Assembly: GCA_028824965.1 (NCBI GenBank)
Contig: JAPKBD010000007.1
Span: forward strand, 1-36,966
Length of the DNA stretch: 36,966 nucleotides
Direction: 5' to 3'
Origin: Alphaproteobacteria bacterium
GTDB taxonomy: Bacteria; Pseudomonadota; Alphaproteobacteria; GCA-2731375
Below the pieces are notes generated by a model. The model was given only the letters and a program-made list of their open reading frames with translations, did not search any database and was not told where the DNA came from. The stretch's first letter is position 1. Each line of letters starts with the position of its first letter. Shown here piece by piece: positions 67 to 29,146 of this stretch. The translations under genes were made by a program, and so were the position numbers.

Positions 67-162
67 TGGCCCGCACCGTACCTGGCTAGGCTTTGACGGA
101 CCTGCACCGTGGCCTTATGGTTATAATCGTTCAAAAATCCAGACTTTGGGGAGATGCCTGAT

Positions 163-858
163 ATGGCGAAGAAATATCATCTGATCAGCTCGATCACTTG
201 ACCGTGGGTACAGCGCGCCGTGATTCTTTTGCGTGCGAAAAATGTCGATTTTGACGTTACCTACATTGATCTGACTGACAAACCCGATTGGTTCCTGAAA
301 ATCTCACCGCACGGCAAGGTGCCCGTGCTTTCGGTGGATGGGGAACCGTTGTTCGAGTCCAATGCCATTGCGGAATATCTTGAAGACGTGGTGGAGCCGA
401 AATGCCATCCCGCCGATACATTTAAGCGGGCCCGCAACCGTGCGTGGACGGATTTCGTGCCGGACTTTTCCAAGGGCATCAATATCTATTACACTAAGAC
501 CCGGGAAGAGATGGATGAGAAGGTCGCTGGTATGTCGGCCTTTCTACAAAAGCTCGAAGATGCCATCGCCAAAGAGCGGGACAATGAAGGGCCGTATTTC
601 AACGGGACTGAGATTTGTCTGGTAGACGCCTCATACGCGCCGTTCCTGCAGCGTTTCCTGTTAATAGAGCAGTTTGTGCAGACAGGTATTCTGGAGAAGT
701 ACCCCCTGGTGCGTGCCTGGGCGGAAGATCTGTTGCAAAACGATGCGGTCATCGGATCAGTTCACGAGACATTTGAGGAAGTGTTCTTCAATAACCTGCG
801 CACCCGTGGCTGGTACGTCGGGACTTTGTTGGGCGAAAGCACTGTCGCGGCAGAGTAG
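163..858 (+). CDS. Glutathione S-transferase (omega/CPWVQR type), putative selenoprotein with in-frame TGA at codon 13
   Basis: GST-fold protein, 231 residues if codon 13 (TGA) is read through. The N-terminal thioredoxin-like domain includes KISPHGKVPVL and FESNAIAEYL, the usual cis-Pro loop and glutathione Ser region; an all-helical domain follows. Before the TGA the frame encodes MAKKYHLISSIT, and after it PWVQRAVILLRAK, so the stop replaces the Cys of a T-C-P-W-V-Q-R motif. That Cys is the nucleophile in omega-like GSTs. GGGGAG at 148-153 sits nine bases before ATG 163 and supports this start; an in-frame ATG at 154 abuts it too closely. Starting at GTG 220 instead would remove the first beta strand and the active site, so it is unlikely. 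The gene ends two bases before a GFA-family gene and probably shares its transcript. Either this is a Sec-containing GST or a recently broken gene; I lean to Sec. Confidence 0.75.
199..201 (+). other. In-frame TGA at the catalytic Cys position (candidate selenocysteine codon)
   Basis: Codon 13 of the first GST gene is TGA, between Thr12 and Pro14-Trp15. The family has Cys here (TGC or TGT), one base away from TGA. Homology continues without a gap on both sides, which is the classic signature of a Cys-to-Sec exchange. No selA, selB, selC or selD lies in the window, so decoding capacity cannot be judged here. Confidence 0.6.
213..236 (+). promoter_or_regulatory. Candidate bacterial SECIS hairpin
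   Basis: Bases 213-218 (GCGCGC) pair with 231-236 (GCGTGC), giving six pairs including one G-U, around a 12-base loop at 219-230 whose second base is G. The stem begins 11 bases after the TGA, and the loop G lies 18 bases after it. As I recall it, the bacterial SECIS model asks for a short stem, a small loop with G in its first two bases and a TGA-to-loop distance of about 16-37 bases; this hairpin fits. A six-pair stem in GC-rich coding DNA can also arise by chance. Confidence 0.45.
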
Positions 859-860
859 CC

Positions 861-1295
861 ATGGCTATGCGACACACTGGTAAATGCCATTGTGGCCGAG
901 TCCGGTATGAAATTACCGGACCCGTACGCCAGGTGGTGGAATGCCATTGCGAAAGCTGCCGCCGGCTTACGGGCAGTGTATGGCATGCCATCGGCACCCG
1001 TCTGACCGACGTCTCTATTGATGATGCCCAGGATAGTTTGAGCTGGTATCGCAGCTCGGAAAAAGTCGAACGCGGTTTTTGTTCGAACTGCGGCTCCACC
1101 ATGTTCTTCCGTCGTGATGGCGGCGATACCCTCACCATCACCGCGGGGTCTTTGGATCAGCCAACCGGCCTGCATCTGATGATGCGCATCTTCCTGGATG
1201 AGGCCGCGGACTATGCACCGGACACCGCTGGCGACGATATCCCCCGCCACGGCACATTCCCGGAGATGCATCACTTCGCCATTCCTGAAGAATAG
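861..1295 (+). CDS. GFA/CENP-V family zinc protein
   Basis: 144-residue protein of the GFA family, annotated historically as glutathione-dependent formaldehyde-activating enzyme. The visible zinc ligand sets are C9-H-C11 (GKCHCG), C28-H-C30-x-x-C33 (CHCESC) and C74-x-x-C77 (CSNCG), the standard pattern, and the length is typical. The start is ATG 861, two bases after the GST stop; ATG 867 is an alternative. The enzymatic role of this family is disputed, so formaldehyde handling is an inference. It is, however, suggestive that the gene sits beside a GST and faces a sarcosine oxidase operon, an enzyme that can release formaldehyde. Likely co-transcribed with the GST and the deaminase downstream. 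Confidence 0.85.
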   Translation: MAMRHTGKCHCGRVRYEITGPVRQVVECHCESCRRLTGSVWHAIGTRLTDVSIDDAQDSLSWYRSSEKVERGFCSNCGSTMFFRRDGGDTLTITAGSLDQPTGLHLMMRIFLDEAADYAPDTAGDDIPRHGTFPEMHHFAIPEE

Positions 1296-1307
1296 GAGGA
1301 TCACCCC

Positions 1308-1802
1308 ATGCATGAAAAATTCATGGCCCGCGCCATAGAGATCGCTGGGGAAAGCATTGATCAGCCGGGTACGTTGCCATACGGCGCAGTGGTTGTCCTG
1401 AATGGAGAAGTTGTCGGTGAAGGCCTGAACCGGGCCGAGGCGACATGCGACCCGACCTCCCATGGTGAAGTGGATGCAATCCGGGATGCCTGCGCCAAAC
1501 TTTCGGTCAGCAGCCTGAAAGGTGCGGACCTTTATACTTCAGGCGAACCCTGTGCCATGTGCGTGGCGACCATGTATCAGGCCGGTATCGCGCGGCTTTT
1601 TTATGCAGCGGACGCCGCTGACAGCGGGGCATTTTTCGGACGTCTGGTGGTCCATGATCCGAAATGGGCCCGCGCCATGAATAATCAGAAACTGCGTGAA
1701 CAGGTTGGCCTGCCCGTCGTCGAACGCAGCATGGTCTCAGAACAGATGATGGTGGCGGATATCGTCGCCGTATTCGAAGCGTTTATCGAACGGCACACAT
1801 AG
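1308..1802 (+). CDS. Nucleoside/guanine deaminase, CMP/dCMP deaminase superfamily
   Basis: 164-residue zinc-dependent deaminase. The zinc and proton-transfer residues are visible as H52-G-E54 (SHGEVDAI) and P81-C82-x-x-C85 (EPCAMC). The C-terminal part with YAADAADSGAFFGR resembles guanine deaminase and tRNA adenosine deaminase (TadA) relatives. Domain spacing and length suit a small-molecule deaminase better than TadA, which usually carries HAE rather than HGE; the substrate is therefore open. An AGGAGG-like site just after the GFA stop, about eight bases before ATG 1308, supports the start and suggests co-transcription with the two genes upstream. The stop lies eight bases from the convergent soxG stop. 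Confidence 0.85.
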   Translation: MHEKFMARAIEIAGESIDQPGTLPYGAVVVLNGEVVGEGLNRAEATCDPTSHGEVDAIRDACAKLSVSSLKGADLYTSGEPCAMCVATMYQAGIARLFYAADAADSGAFFGRLVVHDPKWARAMNNQKLREQVGLPVVERSMVSEQMMVADIVAVFEAFIERHT

Positions 1803-1810
1803 GTCACTGC

Positions 1811-2317
1811 CTAAATCGCGCCGTCCACCAACCAAGCATAAACGTGTTGGCCATAGCTGCGCGGGACATAGATGTCCATGTGGCTACCGCTCTCCAAATG
1901 ATGCACCAGGATCGGAACAGGGGAGAGGCTGCCCAGTCCGCTTTGGGCGCAATGGCCGGGCGGGAAGTTCGAAAGGCGCAGATCCAGAGGGCAGCTCTTG
2001 GCGAGGATCGCGCGGGCAGGTTCCGCGTCTATTCGGAAGACAGTGCGGGCATGGCTTAGATCACTGAGGGCTGCGCCTTCTATTGTTTGAGCTTCTTCAC
2101 TAACCAACAGATATTCGCCCGGAGCGACCCAAAGGGCATGGACGCCCCCCTTGTGGCTGGCGGTGTTTGGTTGTTCGGGCAGGTCGAGCCCCGACACCGG
2201 CTCCTGTAAGCCGTTGGGGGCGTAGAGACGCTGGATCCACAGGCCCGTGCGTTCCCGGATCAGGTCGTGGGGTTCCATGCCAACTAAGGCCGAACGGCGT
2301 TCTGGAATATCAGGCAC
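1811..2317 (-). CDS. soxG: Sarcosine oxidase gamma subunit
   Basis: 168-residue SoxG, the small non-catalytic subunit of heterotetrameric sarcosine oxidase, which folds like a GcvT-type domain. Recognisable stretches are the opening PDIPERRSAL, LWVAPGEYLL, LSHARTVFRI and a C-terminal VPRSYGQHVYAWL. I chose GTG 2317, which overlaps the soxA stop by eight bases and has a purine-rich GGGGGAG site seven bases before it. ATG 2338 is possible and would add seven residues. It is the last gene of the soxBDAG operon and is convergent with the deaminase gene. Subunit identity is secure from sequence plus operon order. Confidence 0.9.
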   Translation of the reverse strand: MPDIPERRSALVGMEPHDLIRERTGLWIQRLYAPNGLQEPVSGLDLPEQPNTASHKGGVHALWVAPGEYLLVSEEAQTIEGAALSDLSHARTVFRIDAEPARAILAKSCPLDLRLSNFPPGHCAQSGLGSLSPVPILVHHLESGSHMDIYVPRSYGQHVYAWLVDGAI

Positions 2318-5093
2318 GCAGACGCTCCCCCTTTGCATCGATAAATATGGGGTCCGTGACCTCGACCTGAACGACACGGCCATCAACGGGGGAATGGGCC
2401 CACAGGGTCTCGCCATGACGCTGACGGCCATTGGTCACCATGGCTGTAGCAATGGGTTTGCCCAGGGTGGCTGAGAACACGGACGTTGCCACATGCCCCG
2501 CCTTTTCCATTGACGGTCCCGGTGTTTCCCGGTTCCCCATGATGGCGCCGGGCGGGATGGCTGTTTTGCCGTCTGTTGGCACCAATCCGACCAGGTTCAG
2601 ACGGCCTTCCGTCATTAGGGCGGGCAGGCGCAGGGACCGCCGCCCGATGAAATCCTTTTTGCTGGAGAGCATGCGGCCCAGGCCCATGTCATCGGCGCTG
2701 GCGCGGCCATCCGCCTCCGGTCCCATGACAAAATGGCCTTTCTCCGTACGTAGGGTTGTCAGGGCCTCGGTGCCATAGGGTATAACGTCCATGTCCTTGC
2801 CCGCTGCCAACAACATCTCCCACAAAGCATGGCCGTGATCGCTGGGCACCGCCATCTCGTATGCCAATTCGCCTGAAAAACTGATGCGGAAGACCTGGGC
2901 CGCAATATTACCAATTTCTCCTGCCCGCCAGCCCATAAAGGGCAGAGCCTGGTTGGCAAATTCCATATCGCTGTCCAGGTTTTCCAGCAGGGCGCGGGAC
3001 TGCGGCCCGGCAACGGCAACAACGGCCCATTGATCTGTGATGGAAGTCAGACGCACATCAAGGTCGGGCCAGACCACTTGTAGATAATATTCCAGGTGCG
3101 CCATGACCGGGCCTGCATTGGCGGTGGTGGTGGTCATGATGTAGTGGTTATCGCCCATGTGTGCGACGGTGCCGTCATCAAAGATCATACCGTCATCGCG
3201 CAGCATCACGCCGTATCGGCACATGCCGATGGCAAGGGTTTTGAAACCATTGATATAGACCCGGTTCAGAAATTCGGCCACATCCACGCCATGCAAATCG
3301 ATCCGCCCTAAAGTGGAGACATCGACAATGGCGACATTTTCGCGCACGGCCAGCACCTCGCGCTTGACTGCATCGGCCATCGCCTCCCCCCCGCGCGGAT
3401 AATAATGGGGCCGCTGCCACAGGCCCGCGGGGACAAAGACCGCGCCGTTATCTTCGTGCCATTCCTGTAATGGCGTGCGGCGGGTGGGCGTAAAAAACGC
3501 GCCGACCTCCCGCCCCGCCAAGGCTCCAATAGTGACCGGGGTATAGGGCGCGCGATAGGTTGTGATGCCCACGTCGGGCAGGGGTTTGTCCAAGGCGTTG
3601 GCCAAGGCAGCAATACCGTTCAGGTTCGAGGTCTTGCCCTGGTCCGTGCCCATGCCCAATGTGGTATAGCGCTTCAGGTGCTCAACAGATCGATAGCCTT
3701 CGCGGGCCGCCAATTCCACATCCGCCGCCGTCACATCGTTTTGCAGATCGATGAATTGCTTGGCCTTGCCACGGCTAAGGGCGATGGGCGCGCCGATGCC
3801 GCCATCCAGTTCGCCATTCGCTGTGCCAACCACGGTAATGCCCGGCACTTCCGTTTTCGGCACCATGGTTTGGATATCATCCCGGAATGTCAGCTTGCCG
3901 CCTGCTTGGGAAAACAAATGCACGCTTGGCGTGAAGCCGCCTGCGACACACAACAGGTCGCAATCGATCAGACGTTCAGATTGCGGCACCGCATCGCCGT
4001 CCACATCCAGGGGCGCAATGGTCACCCGGCGCAGACCATGGCGGCCAGCTGTGTCGATGACGGCGTGATTGTGCAGGATCTCACAGCCGGCGATCTCCCG
4101 CCGGGTGGTCATGTGTCGTTGGTCAATGATTGCGGCAACTTCAACCCCGCCTTCGATCAGTGTGCTGGCCACGTCATAGGCGCTGTCGTTGTTGGCGACG
4201 ATCACGGCGCGCTTGCCCGGAGCTACGCCATAGTCAGCCAAATAGCGCGCGGCGGCGCTGGCCAGCAAGATGCCGGGGCGGTCGTTATTGGCGAATACCA
4301 GCGGGCGTTCAATGGCACCGCTGGCCAGGATCATCCTACCCGCCCGCACCAGCCATAGGATTTGACGCGGCGCACCTGCCTCAGGTTTGGCCAAATGATC
4401 GCCGGTGCGTTCCACCAGGCCATAAAGGCCGTCGTCGTATTTCCCAAACGCCGTAGTCCGCGCCATTGTGGTGACGTTGTCCAAAGCTTCCAATTGCGCG
4501 TTCTCGTCCACCAGCCAGACAAGGCTGCCGTCTTTCGCGGCCTCAGTCGCGGCTGTGCGGCCCGCTGCGCCACCGCCAATAACCAGAACATCGCAATGGG
4601 CATGGCGTTTCTCGTAGTGGTCCGGGTCGGCCGCTTTGGCGCTGCGTCCCATGCCCGCCATGTTTCGGATCAGATGTTCATAATGAGGCCAGAATTTCCC
4701 TGGCCACATGAAGGTCTTGTAATAGAAGCCCGCAGGCAGGAACCTTGAGACCAGACCCAGTGCTGCGCCCAGATCCCAATTCAGGGATGGCCAGTTGTTT
4801 TGGCTGTGTGCGACCAAGCCTTCATACAGCTCCACCTGAGTGGCCCGCATGTTGGGTTCGGCCCGTGCGCCCGCGCGCATTTGAACCAGGGCGGAGGGGT
4901 CTTCACTGCCCGCGCCAAAGATGCCCCGTGGCCGATGATACTTGAAACTCCGCCCAATAACGCGAACACCGTTTGCCATCAGGGCGGAGGCCAAGGTGTC
5001 ACCGTGATAGCCGCGATACGTTTCGCCATCAAAGGTGAAAGACAGCGGACGGTTCCGATCAATTAACCGGCCCATGGATGGATGGCGGTTCAT
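2310..5093 (-). CDS. soxA: Sarcosine oxidase alpha subunit
   Basis: 927-residue large subunit. It carries the dinucleotide-binding half of the enzyme and the folate-binding GcvT-like C-terminal half that takes the methyl unit from sarcosine oxidation to tetrahydrofolate. The N-terminal Fer2_4-like region (GDTLASALMANGVRVIGRS) is at residues 31-49. The dinucleotide motif GGGAAG is at 173-178, with GAIERPLVFANNDRPG further on. GcvT-type segments (VPAGLWQRPHYYP, FSGELAYEMAVP, YGTEALTTLRTEKGHF) fill the second half. The protein is shorter than the usual approximately 1000 residues. Compared with the family as I remember it, VDENAQ at 195-200 runs directly into LEALDNV, lacking some 35 residues that normally hold a GG-LL flavin-contact segment. 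ATGA overlap couples it to soxD upstream, and soxG overlaps its end. Confidence 0.9.
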   Translation of the reverse strand: MNRHPSMGRLIDRNRPLSFTFDGETYRGYHGDTLASALMANGVRVIGRSFKYHRPRGIFGAGSEDPSALVQMRAGARAEPNMRATQVELYEGLVAHSQNNWPSLNWDLGAALGLVSRFLPAGFYYKTFMWPGKFWPHYEHLIRNMAGMGRSAKAADPDHYEKRHAHCDVLVIGGGAAGRTAATEAAKDGSLVWLVDENAQLEALDNVTTMARTTAFGKYDDGLYGLVERTGDHLAKPEAGAPRQILWLVRAGRMILASGAIERPLVFANNDRPGILLASAAARYLADYGVAPGKRAVIVANNDSAYDVASTLIEGGVEVAAIIDQRHMTTRREIAGCEILHNHAVIDTAGRHGLRRVTIAPLDVDGDAVPQSERLIDCDLLCVAGGFTPSVHLFSQAGGKLTFRDDIQTMVPKTEVPGITVVGTANGELDGGIGAPIALSRGKAKQFIDLQNDVTAADVELAAREGYRSVEHLKRYTTLGMGTDQGKTSNLNGIAALANALDKPLPDVGITTYRAPYTPVTIGALAGREVGAFFTPTRRTPLQEWHEDNGAVFVPAGLWQRPHYYPRGGEAMADAVKREVLAVRENVAIVDVSTLGRIDLHGVDVAEFLNRVYINGFKTLAIGMCRYGVMLRDDGMIFDDGTVAHMGDNHYIMTTTTANAGPVMAHLEYYLQVVWPDLDVRLTSITDQWAVVAVAGPQSRALLENLDSDMEFANQALPFMGWRAGEIGNIAAQVFRISFSGELAYEMAVPSDHGHALWEMLLAAGKDMDVIPYGTEALTTLRTEKGHFVMGPEADGRASADDMGLGRMLSSKKDFIGRRSLRLPALMTEGRLNLVGLVPTDGKTAIPPGAIMGNRETPGPSMEKAGHVATSVFSATLGKPIATAMVTNGRQRHGETLWAHSPVDGRVVQVEVTDPIFIDAKGERLRA

Positions 5094-11138: not shown

Positions 11139-13322
11139 ATGGCGGCACTGGACTACACCTTCATTTTTTTGGCTGTGATTTGCCTACTGGTACTGGGGAT
11201 AGCGCTTGGTCTTGGGCTGGCTATAATGATGCGTCGTGGTTATGCATACGCTGTTGCCCCGCAGGCCCTGACGAACGAAACGGAGATCGTTAGCGCCCTG
11301 CCTTTGGCAATGGCTTATTTCGATCAGAATGACCAGTTGCAGCAGGTTAACGAGAAGCTGTTGCAGCTCATGCCAATGATCCACGGTGTAAAAGATCAAA
11401 GGTTCAGCCGCCTGGAATTTTTTCGTGCCCTGGCAGAGGCAGGCATTTTCGTCGATGCGGCCCATCGAGTGCCGGCCTTTTTGGAAGATGTGGCTAAACG
11501 GGCACAGCAACCGAATGTGGAATGGGAAGTCAGCTTAACCGACGGTCGCAGTCTACGTTTCAATGAGCGCACCACGGATGGTGGCGGGCGTTTGTTGAGC
11601 TGTGTCGATATTACCCGGTTGAAGCAACAAAGCTGGGCGTTGGACGAAAAATCCGAATTGCTGCGGTCAACCTTGGAAAGCATTGATCAAGGCGTCGTCG
11701 TCTTTGACAGTGCCGGCGACTTGTTGACTTGGAATCAAAGGTACTTCGATCTTTTCGGCGTGACATCGGAAATTGCTGAAGCCGGGCTTTCGATTGAAAA
11801 ACTTTGCCAGTTTCTTGGTGATGCAGGTGTTTTCGATGATACTTCTGCCGTAGCCATAAAAAATCGCGCCGAGGCGATGTTGAGCTGCACCCCGCCGCGC
11901 CACGAAATGACGGGGCGTGATGGCCAAGCCCTGGATGTGCGACGCAACCGGATGCCCGACGCTGGCATCACAATCGCGATCACCGATATCACAGAGCAAA
12001 AACAGGGCCAGGAAGACCTGCGCAAACGGTCGGAGGAGCTGGAGGCGATCTTCGGCAATCTGGATGTAGGCATTGCCTTCATCGGACCGGCAGGCGAGAT
12101 CGTCGCGTTGAACGAAGGTTTGTATGAACTGCAGGGGCTTGACCCTGATCGTGTTGCAGAATGCCGGACGGTACGGGATCTGCTGCGCCTGAGTGCGGAT
12201 AATGGTGAGCTTGGGGAGGGGGACCGAGAAGAATTAGTTGAGGCGGTTTTAGAAAAGTCCTTCGGTGCCGTGCCAAGCACCTATCAACGCACCCGGCAAA
12301 ATGGTGACGTTCTTGAATTCAGGACCTTTGCCATGCCTGGCGGCGGTGTTCTCGCTGTCTGTCAGAACGTGACCGAACAACAGAATTCTGAACAGGCCCT
12401 GCGCGTCGCCAAGGAACAGGCGGAGCTGGCCAATCGCGCCAAGTCGGAATTCCTGGCCAATACCTCCCATGAATTGCGCACGCCATTGAACGCCATCATC
12501 GGTTTTTCCGAAATTCTTGTTGGCGAACTATTCGGGCCGCTCAGTTCGCCGAAGTACCTCGAATATTCCAAGGATATTAACGAGAGCGGCCAGCACCTGC
12601 TGTCCATCATCAATGACTTGCTGGATCTGGCCAAGGTGGAAGCCGGGCATTTTGAACTTTCGGAAGAACAGTTCCTGCTGTCCGAAGTGGTCGTCGCAAC
12701 TGCACGGCTGACCCAGGAAAGAGCCAGCGAAGGCGGGGTCAGGGTTATCACCGAGATTGATCCGGACATTGATCTGATCCGGGCTGACAAACGGGCGCTG
12801 AAACAGGTCATTTTAAATTTGCTGTCCAATGCGATCAAATTCACCTTGGAAGGTGGCCAGGTCACTGTCGGCACCGGGCGTCGCCGGGACCTAAGAAGCG
12901 GTGAAGAACAGATCGAATTATGGGTGACGGACACGGGCATTGGCATGAAGGAGGAAGATATTCCCTTCGCTATGACACCATTTGCCCAAGTGGACGGCTC
13001 GTCCACCCGTCGTTTTGAGGGCACCGGCCTCGGCCTGCCCCTGGCGCTGCATCTGTGTGAATTGCATGGTGGAACGTTAGCTATCAATTCCGAATTTGGT
13101 GAAGGCACGACGGTGACCATGCTGTTGCTCGCCGAACGCATGTTAGGCAATACGGAAGATGCCCGTCAGGAATTGACACCCCATCAGCCAGTCCAAAATG
13201 TAGCGGCCGGAGCGGCCGGAGCGGCCGGAGCGGCCGGAGCGGATGTGGATGAATTTCTCAGTCAGGGGTTGGGTGAGGCGCAAAGTGAGTTGTTGGAGCT
13301 AATCGCCTCGAAAGTTGGGTGA
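11139..13322 (+). CDS. PAS-domain sensor histidine kinase (PleC/DivJ-like core)
   Basis: 727-residue membrane-tethered kinase. One transmembrane helix is at about residues 6-30 (FIFLAVICLLVLGIALGLGL). Three PAS-type regions follow at about 45-160, 170-290 (STLESIDQGVVVFDSAGDLL) and 300-420. The HisKA phosphoacceptor is at FLANTSHELRTPLNAIIGFSE with His444, and its FGPLSSPKYLEYSKDI segment resembles alphaproteobacterial PleC/DivJ kinases. The ATPase domain shows LLSNAIKF, DTGIGM and GTGLGLPLA. A C-terminal tail carries an AAG repeat and an acidic-helical end. There is no receiver domain or adjacent response regulator, so the partner is encoded elsewhere. ATG 11139 is preferred over TTG 11136. 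The 3' end overlaps the convergent crotonase gene by 24 bases. Confidence 0.9.
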   Translation: MAALDYTFIFLAVICLLVLGIALGLGLAIMMRRGYAYAVAPQALTNETEIVSALPLAMAYFDQNDQLQQVNEKLLQLMPMIHGVKDQRFSRLEFFRALAEAGIFVDAAHRVPAFLEDVAKRAQQPNVEWEVSLTDGRSLRFNERTTDGGGRLLSCVDITRLKQQSWALDEKSELLRSTLESIDQGVVVFDSAGDLLTWNQRYFDLFGVTSEIAEAGLSIEKLCQFLGDAGVFDDTSAVAIKNRAEAMLSCTPPRHEMTGRDGQALDVRRNRMPDAGITIAITDITEQKQGQEDLRKRSEELEAIFGNLDVGIAFIGPAGEIVALNEGLYELQGLDPDRVAECRTVRDLLRLSADNGELGEGDREELVEAVLEKSFGAVPSTYQRTRQNGDVLEFRTFAMPGGGVLAVCQNVTEQQNSEQALRVAKEQAELANRAKSEFLANTSHELRTPLNAIIGFSEILVGELFGPLSSPKYLEYSKDINESGQHLLSIINDLLDLAKVEAGHFELSEEQFLLSEVVVATARLTQERASEGGVRVITEIDPDIDLIRADKRALKQVILNLLSNAIKFTLEGGQVTVGTGRRRDLRSGEEQIELWVTDTGIGMKEEDIPFAMTPFAQVDGSSTRRFEGTGLGLPLALHLCELHGGTLAINSEFGEGTTVTMLLLAERMLGNTEDARQELTPHQPVQNVAAGAAGAAGAAGADVDEFLSQGLGEAQSELLELIASKVG
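13203..13238 (+). repeat. Four perfect 9-bp repeats in the kinase tail
   Basis: The unit GCGGCCGGA occurs four times in direct succession and encodes Ala-Ala-Gly four times (about residues 689-700 of the kinase). It lies between the ATPase domain and the C-terminal helix, where a flexible linker is tolerable. Perfect identity between copies points to recent slippage. Confidence 0.9.
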
Positions 13323-14083
13323 TCTTTTCTCAATAAAGGCATTCATTCCTTCCAGCCTGTCGTTCGATGCAAAACATCGCGCATGCGCCTTAATCTCAGC
13401 CTCCCGCGCCGCTTCAAAGCTCATTTCCAATGACGCATTCAGGGCGCATTTCAATTCACGCATGGCGACGGGTGAATATCCGGCCATGAGGTCCGCCAGA
13501 CGGGCCGTTTCAGCCGCCAGATCATACTTTGTCACCAGGTGTGTGATCAGGCCCAATTGATAGGCCCGCTCAGCGCCAAATAATTCCCCGGTCAGGCAGA
13601 TCGCGCGGGCGTTCGCTGGCCCGATGAGACGATCCAGCAATATTGTGCCCCCGGTGCCTGGAAAAATCCCCAGCTTTATTTCCGGATAGCCGAATGTGGC
13701 GGTGTCTGCAGCGACACGGACATCGCAGGCCATAGCCAGCAACATGCCTCCGCCCAGGGCATAGCCGTTTATGGAGGCGATAATGGGTTGGGGCATATGG
13801 CGGATCTGATCATAAAGGTGCATGCCCAGATAAGACCGCGCACTACCCGTATCTGCACTGCCTGCGCCGGCCATCTCCTTTATGTCCGCGCCGGCGACAA
13901 AGGCCTTGTCGCCGGCCCTTTGATGACGACGACGCGGATGTCCGGGTCTTTGGATATGTCGATCAAACATGCGGTCAACTCCCGGAACACCTGACTGCTC
14001 AAGGCATTCAGCATGTGTGGCCGGTTCATGATTATGGTCGCGACCGGTCCGTTGTCTTCCTGCAAAATTGTCTCGTAGGCCAT
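13299..14083 (-). pseudogene. Enoyl-CoA hydratase/isomerase (crotonase) with a one-base frameshift
   Basis: Two overlapping frames together make one crotonase of about 261 residues. The first encodes MAYETILQEDNGPVATIIMNR through DIRVVVIKG. The second continues AGDKAFVAGADIKEMAG, with GGGMLLAMACD and YPEIKLGIFPGTGGT. The break is near 13911-13918, where AAAGGGCCGGC lacks one base: adding a G restores GAGDKAFVAGAD, a family hallmark. The family's second catalytic Glu (in YPEIKLG) is present, but the first (usually GGGxEL) is Leu, so true hydratase activity is uncertain even if repaired. The defect may be a real mutation or a homopolymer error. ATG 14083 is the start. It converges with the kinase gene and diverges from the thioesterase gene. 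Confidence 0.85.
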
Positions 14084-14169
14084 GCTTTGAACTCCCAACT
14101 ACTTGCCATGCTGATGCTGTATTCTGATAATAGCCTGAATGAGTTGATGATGGGACAGAGCAAAAAATT

Positions 14170-17489: not shown

Positions 17490-18110
17490 ATGTTGAAAGT
17501 TTATGGCCGCAGCAATTCGGTCAACGTGCAAAAAGTTATGTGGATCATCGGCGAATTGGGCCTGGATCATGAACGGATCGATGCCGGTGGTACCTTTGGC
17601 CTGAACGATCAGGAATGGTATTTGGCGATGAACCCCATGGGGCGGGTGCCGGTGCTCGATGATGATGGTTATATCTTGTGGGAAAGCCACAGCATCATCC
17701 GCTATCTGGCGCTGCAAAACCCTGATGCCGGTTTGTACCCGACGGACCCGCGGCTAGGTGGTGATGTGGACAAATGGCTGGATTGGAAGTTGGGTTTTCT
17801 GACGCCTGCTCTAACCCCTGCCTTCTGGGGCTTGATCCGCACACCTGAGGCGGAACAGGACAAAGCCGCAATCGCGGCATCGTCTAAAGCCAGCGCCGAA
17901 TTATTCGGCATTTTGGACAAGCATCTGGAGGGCCGGGAATATATGGCAGGCGATAATTTCGGCCTGGCCGATATGCCTGTCGGTGCCTTCACCTATCGTT
18001 GGTACGGCCTGGATGTGGAGCATCCTGACTACCCTAATTTGGCCGCCTGGTATGAACGTCTGTGCCAGCGTCCGGCTTATCAGGAACACGTCATGCTGCC
18101 CATAACCTGA
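17490..18110 (+). CDS. Glutathione S-transferase (Ser-type, beta/theta-like)
   Basis: 206-residue GST. The N-terminal GRSNSVNVQKVMWIIGELGL carries the serine expected to activate glutathione; MNPMGRVPVLDDDGYILWESHSIIRYL holds the cis-Pro and gamma-glutamyl binding Ser. The helical domain ends ADMPVGAFTYRW and NLAAWYERLCQRPAY. Unlike the first GST it has no Cys at the active site. It is a single gene with its own 5' region at 17337-17489, which contains no clear promoter, and it ends near a hairpin shared with the convergent ligase gene. Confidence 0.9.
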   Translation: MLKVYGRSNSVNVQKVMWIIGELGLDHERIDAGGTFGLNDQEWYLAMNPMGRVPVLDDDGYILWESHSIIRYLALQNPDAGLYPTDPRLGGDVDKWLDWKLGFLTPALTPAFWGLIRTPEAEQDKAAIAASSKASAELFGILDKHLEGREYMAGDNFGLADMPVGAFTYRWYGLDVEHPDYPNLAAWYERLCQRPAYQEHVMLPIT

Positions 18111-28455: not shown

Positions 28456-28459
28456 ACCT

Positions 28460-29146
28460 ATGATCGATCTCTACACGGCCTCTACCCCGAACGGTTGGAA
28501 AGCCTCCGTCACGTTGGAAGAATTGGCACTGCCCTATGAAGTGCATCCTATTCGCTTGAGCGAAGGCGACCAGAAGACGGACAGCTTCCTGGCCATGAAC
28601 CCTAATGGCCGCATTCCTGTCATTGTGGACCGTGAAGCGGATAACTTCGCCGTCTTCGAAAGCGGTGCCATCATGGTCTATCTGGCTGAAAAGACTGGCC
28701 GCCTGATGCCGTCGGATGTCAAAGGCCGCAGCCTTGTCATGCAATGGTTGATGTTCCAGATGGGCGGTATCGGGCCCATGATGGGCCAGGCGAATGTTTT
28801 CTATCGTTATTTTCCCGAGAAAATCCAACCAGCCATAGACCGCTATCAAAACGAATGCCGCCGTCTGTTTGAGGCGTTGGAGCTGGGTTTGGTCGACAAA
28901 GAATATCTGGCCGGCGATCTGTCCATCGCCGATATCGCCAATTGGTGCTGGGTCCGCAGCCATAAATGGTCCGGCGTTGAAGTCGACGGCCTGCCGAATT
29001 TACAGGCCTGGATGGGCCGTATGGCCGAACGCCCGGCCTGCCAGAAAGGCACCAAAATACCTTTTGATGACACAAGGCAGAAAACCAGTACGGATGAAGG
29101 CGCGAAGAAGTTTGCCGAAGACGCCCGTAAAATGGTCGCCCGCTAG
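28460..29146 (+). CDS. Glutathione S-transferase (YfcG/Ure2p-like)
   Basis: 228-residue GST. The opening [21 protein letters not shown] carries the T-P-N-G/S motif of the YfcG group, which uses Thr/Asn rather than Cys and shows disulfide-bond reductase activity in E. coli. [14 protein letters not shown] and [17 protein letters not shown] complete the thioredoxin-like domain. Helical-domain landmarks are [17 protein letters not shown] and [17 protein letters not shown] 28460 lies four bases after the amidohydrolase stop; the open frame extends upstream inside that gene, which I reject as coding. Last gene of the plus-strand operon; a role in glutathione-dependent thioether cleavage or detoxification there is inference. 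Confidence 0.9.

Follow-up and report, generated by a model that had tools for sequence, protein, structure and literature searches.

We analysed a window of 36,966 nt, that is, the whole stretch of DNA under study, which is contig 406 of an alphaproteobacterial MAG of 4.44 Mb in 505 contigs. The features discussed below are listed in Table 1. The frame from 163 to 858 on the forward strand reads MAKKYHLISSIT[TGA]PWVQRAVILL...AAE up to its closing TAG, and the TGA at 199-201, located at the catalytic-Cys position of an xPWVQR motif, is its sole internal stop. This agrees with the original prediction of a glutathione S-transferase (GST) gene that is intact apart from a single in-frame TGA at the catalytic Cys. 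Homology on both sides of the TGA, which was also claimed, is borne out by the domain models: the read-through protein matches GST_N_2, GST_N_3, GST_N and GST_C_2, covering the N- and C-domains, and the match of PF13409 (GST_N_2; E = 1e-19), which would be the domain bearing the selenocysteine (Sec) and is matched by 34/34 members, starts at residue 12. The candidate ribosome-binding site was correctly placed upstream of the TGA. Under translation table 11, the ORF in the GST frame runs from GTG 220 to 858; this start lies past the active site, and its use leads to the loss of the first strand and the active site, as had been predicted.

Table 1. Coordinates of the features at the GST locus
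Feature	Position	Strand	Remarks
Shine-Dalgarno-like GGGGAG	148..153	+	9 nt before ATG 163; kept in most same-genus orthologues
Predicted Sec-containing GST-like gene	163..858	+	231 residues, U13; TAG at 856-858
UGA codon, predicted to be read as selenocysteine 13	199..201	+	aligned with the catalytic Cys of omega GST / TDR1 / DHAR
SECIS-type hairpin	213..236	+	5' arm 213-218 GCGCGC, loop 219-230 CGUGAUUCUUUU, 3' arm 231-236 GCGUGC
GUG in the hairpin loop; start of the mechanical ORF 220-858, taken to be a false 'restart'	220..222	+	GTG in 50/51 TGA genes
GFA-family gene (PF04828)	861..1295	+	directly 3' of GST; conserved only in the same genus; outside the proposed Sec mechanism

The GST gene is found in 12 of the 15 genomes of the source family (59-100% identity; a search at the order level returned the same 15 genomes), and all 12 homologues contain exactly one internal TGA, always at codon 13. 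Among GTDB genomes, a scan identified 75 loci, 69 of them informative at codon 13: TGA is present in 49, TGT in nine, TGC in nine and AGC in two (distant GSTs), a ratio of TGA to Cys that is not a frequency, because one search pattern contained Cys. In a sample of 385 genomes spread evenly over the class, the TGA form is seen in 12 genomes, and 24 contain only stop-free homologues (E up to 1e-60). With two family genes outside the GTDB list there are 51 distinct TGA genes, compared with 17 close Cys genes and one distant Cys gene, an agreement beyond what chance would give. Both the Cys-containing and the independent TGA-containing orthologues that the original prediction had proposed to look for thus exist, an in-frame UGA aligned with a conserved Cys being present in at least two distinct sequences. 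The TGA genes, with identities as low as about 54%, come from MAGs labelled Alpha- and Gammaproteobacteria and include some from low-contig assemblies; one of the MAGs is labelled Acidobacteria, yet its gene is nested in the clade of the window gene.

The AlphaFold model of the read-through protein has a GST fold (mean pLDDT 93), with a helix at residues 14-25. Profile searches align residue 13 with the Cys that is catalytic in TDR1 and in omega GST. The best profile matches are TDR1 and GSTO1, the best structural match is a tau GST, and the closest overall folds are tau GSTs, followed by TDR1, omega GSTs and DHAR. The protein shares with omega GSTs, DHAR and Leishmania TDR1 the fold, the position of the nucleophile at the start of helix 1 (U13 on their catalytic Cys) and the VP and ES residues of the glutathione (GSH) site; it differs from them in the predicted Sec in place of Cys, in an identity of only about 20-28% and in having a tau GST as its best overall structural match. 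P54, E65 and S66 are invariant among the homologues. Cys152, the only other frequent Cys, is found in 42/65 and is not conserved throughout.

By analogy with these proteins, the likely activity is that of a transferase or reductase that depends on GSH, as in omega GST, DHAR or TDR1, and a monothiol-type selenol mechanism with GSH would be the best reading of the active site. The conservation of the nucleophile as Sec or Cys, together with that of the GSH-site residues VP54 and E65-S66, favours GSH chemistry over a Sec protein of another kind (an SspA- or FzlA-like binding protein, or a peroxidase or reductase using another thiol). This alternative is unlikely but deserves to be kept in mind, as some proteins with a GST fold are not enzymes (this one has weak matches to SspA and FzlA), tau rather than omega GSTs are the closest overall folds, and no conserved neighbouring gene names a pathway. 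The gene neighbourhood gave no pathway: the GFA-family gene follows GST in eight close relatives only, and no neighbour recurs beyond the genus.

Concerning the other genes of the window, GST is followed (861-5093) by a GFA-family gene, a deaminase gene and sarcosine-oxidase-like genes, an arrangement shared within the genus except for the deaminase gene, which only the closest relative has; a link of these genes to formaldehyde or C1 metabolism is possible. Two more GST-family genes are found within the 37 kb, at 17490-18110 (+) and about 28457-29146 (+); as read from the sequence, they have no Cys or Sec at the corresponding position. An enoyl-CoA hydratase-like gene at 13299-14100 (-) extends over two frames, MAYETILQEDNGPVATIIMNRP...VVVIKG and then AGDKAFVAGADIKEMAG, and this split would be a frameshift, either real or an assembly error.

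The hairpin begins 11 nt downstream of the UGA, inside the coding sequence. Counting the U of the UGA as 1, bases 15-20 pair with bases 33-38 around a 12-nt loop. In 48 TGA genes (39 distinct rows; the count leaves out L100, L102 and L104), every cell of the six pairs holds a standard pair (100%). The stem changes in the TGA genes are ten from G-U to G-C and four double changes from G-C to A-U at pair 15-38, the latter all within one clade and therefore probably one event. Pairing in the same columns of the 17 Cys genes is 82%, and two-sided changes are absent. L100, L102 and L104, as read from the sequence, have six pairs in another register (AAGGGC/GCCCUU), which gives a loop of 7 nt. C21, G22 and U23, at the start of the loop, are invariant in the 51 TGA genes, and the selD genes of these genomes have hairpins with a matching core, GC closing a loop that begins with CGUG (GC/CGUG).

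There is also a difference in synonymous identity between the two kinds of gene: at codons 17-20 the Sec genes have 0.91, versus 0.49 for the remaining, downstream codons, and the corresponding values of the Cys genes are 0.62 and 0.54. When windows of nine codons are used, codons 17-25 of the Sec genes reach 0.74 and the best downstream window 0.65. Val20 is encoded by GTG in 48/49 Sec genes versus 4/11 Cys genes with Val (P = 6e-6). When the region is folded as a single sequence, its stability does not exceed that of shuffled sequences (z = +0.74), so the case for the hairpin rests on comparison; an Rfam scan of the window gave no match at the gathering threshold. Judged from the aligned genes, the synonymous constraint just 3' of the TGA and the conserved hairpin are confined to the TGA genes.

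The published bacterial SECIS (bSECIS) model (bSECISearch; PMC13188914, Fig. 2A) has an upper stem of 4-16 bp, 16-37 nt from the UGA to the loop, an MFE <= -7.5 kcal/mol, a G in the first two loop positions and an apical loop of 3-9 nt. The window hairpin fits this model in its 6-bp stem, in its loop located 17 nt after the UGA, in its energy (about -8.8 kcal/mol for the hairpin alone) and in the G at loop position 2, which is followed by U (CGUG...), but not in its 12-nt loop. Some bSECIS elements are stated not to conform to the published model (PMC13188914).

The conserved hairpin also bears on the GTG-started ORF. That ORF exists, and its GTG is conserved at that codon, which would suit a restart at GTG 220 that yields a truncated GST without its first strand and active site, the UGA being a true stop, perhaps of a leader. 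We consider this very improbable: the GTG is part of the conserved hairpin and is replaced by GTC in seven Cys genes and, among the UGA genes, in L095 alone, the codons upstream of it are conserved as protein (KYHLISS.T in most homologues) and follow a Shine-Dalgarno sequence, and the Cys homologues read through.

The selA, selB, selC and selD genes, a search for which had been suggested, are all found in the source genome, selB and selC, whose absence was to count against Sec, among them. The selA gene (C54:8239-9582) adjoins selB (C54:6274-8193), the tRNA-Sec is located on contig 34 (C34; ARAGORN confirms the anticodon tca), and selD, on contig 379 (G000:C379:5849-6775, L138), has an in-frame TGA of its own at AHGGG[U]GCKIAP; SelA, SelB, tRNA-Sec and SelD are thus present together. 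In the source family, selB and selD pass the cut-offs in 15/15 genomes and selA in 14/15. More widely, selA is found in 29/33 TGA genomes versus 5/17 Cys genomes (Fisher P = 5e-5). Four TGA genomes are without selA; one of them has selB, and the other three (L072, L077 and L103) have neither gene, perhaps as a result of MAG incompleteness.

The selD genes themselves vary within the family. A TGA-containing (Sec) selD is present in 12/15 genomes, and a further selD-like match, in a frame of about 760-790 aa without TGA, occurs in most genomes of the same genus. The three family genomes that lack a Sec-type selD (G013:C1:681477-683887, G014:C80 and G011:C171) have their tRNA-Sec no more than a few kb from a long (740-830 aa) selD-containing frame.

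TGA terminates 12/26 genes in the window as an ordinary stop, hence the genetic code is not reassigned. The Cys of the homologues could suggest that a suppressor tRNA or a reassigned code inserts some other amino acid, Trp or Cys, at the UGA, but besides these ordinary stops, the Sec machinery and a hairpin that only the UGA genes possess indicate SelB, and such a reading is hardly credible. A pseudogene or assembly error (a TGC or TGT mis-called as TGA, or a recent nonsense mutation) can be practically discounted, even though the window belongs to a 505-contig MAG and its gene at 13299-14100 seems frameshifted, since the remainder of the GST frame is intact and conserved and the same TGA is seen in 51 distinct genes of independent assemblies, some of them low-contig, to about 54% identity; sequencing error and recent pseudogene formation are excluded by these independent orthologues.

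The reading of TGA 199-201 as Sec is strongly supported by comparison of sequences, and 163-858 is almost certainly a selenoprotein gene of the GST superfamily with its UGA decoded as Sec. Three comparative findings speak for Sec decoding: the conservation of the UGA/Cys position, a hairpin restricted to the UGA genes, and Sec machinery that is complete. In the proposed mechanism, ribosomes would start at ATG 163, the UGA would be translated as Sec by SelB and Sec-tRNA(UCA), directed by the hairpin, and translation would then run on to the TAG. GSH would be bound in the thioredoxin-fold N-domain (VP54 region and E65-S66), with Sec13, at the N-terminal end of helix 1, as the nucleophile. The reaction of Sec13 with GSH or a glutathionylated substrate would give a selenenyl-sulfide, regenerated by GSH, so that the protein may act as a monothiol-type thiol transferase or reductase resembling omega GSTs, DHAR or TDR1.

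On a tree with residue 13 masked, the distribution of Sec and Cys needs five changes, and starred branches force at least three of them. The Cys gene L058 groups as a pair with the Sec gene L103, and the Cys clade contains the Sec gene L082. The Cys version may be the one used by lineages without Sec machinery. We tentatively suggest, at somewhat less than even confidence, that the Sec-GSTs of Alpha- and Gammaproteobacteria are an orthologous group with a bSECIS type of its own (a large 12-nt loop beginning with CGUG, and a core also found in the genome's own selD), in which Sec and Cys have been exchanged repeatedly, in line with gain or loss of the Sec machinery.

The original prediction had stated that Sec-containing GST-like sequences are reported in marine surveys, and this proved correct: the Sargasso Sea survey of 2005 lists 'Glutathione S-transferase' as one of its new selenoprotein families, with four sequences (PMC1088965), and GST selenoproteins are represented by 12 sequences in the GOS survey of 2008 (PMC2398784). 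A GST-like selenoprotein family is also named in reviews of 2022 and 2026 (PMC9312934, PMC13188914); its published exemplars are PPR62222.1 and MEK9676863.1. According to the 2026 review, nearly all such selenoprotein families were found computationally and are functionally uncharacterised (PMC13188914), and the marine surveys and reviews naming the family report no activity for any Sec GST member. By their description, the Sargasso Sea and GOS proteins resemble the window protein in belonging to the GST superfamily (COG0625 / PF13409), in having one Sec with no second redox residue listed, and in being bacterial and from marine data. The window gene differs from the survey GSTs in coming from an alphaproteobacterial MAG with complete Sec machinery and in having many orthologues in Alpha- and Gammaproteobacteria.

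Given the reports of 2005 and 2008, the window gene joins a known, biochemically uncharacterised family. Since any gene finder that takes UGA as a stop truncates the gene at a false GTG start, with the active site lost, many proteobacterial genomes probably carry a wrong annotation of the enzyme. The group provides natural Sec/Cys pairs of a single GST, which would be useful for learning what selenium adds to glutathione chemistry.
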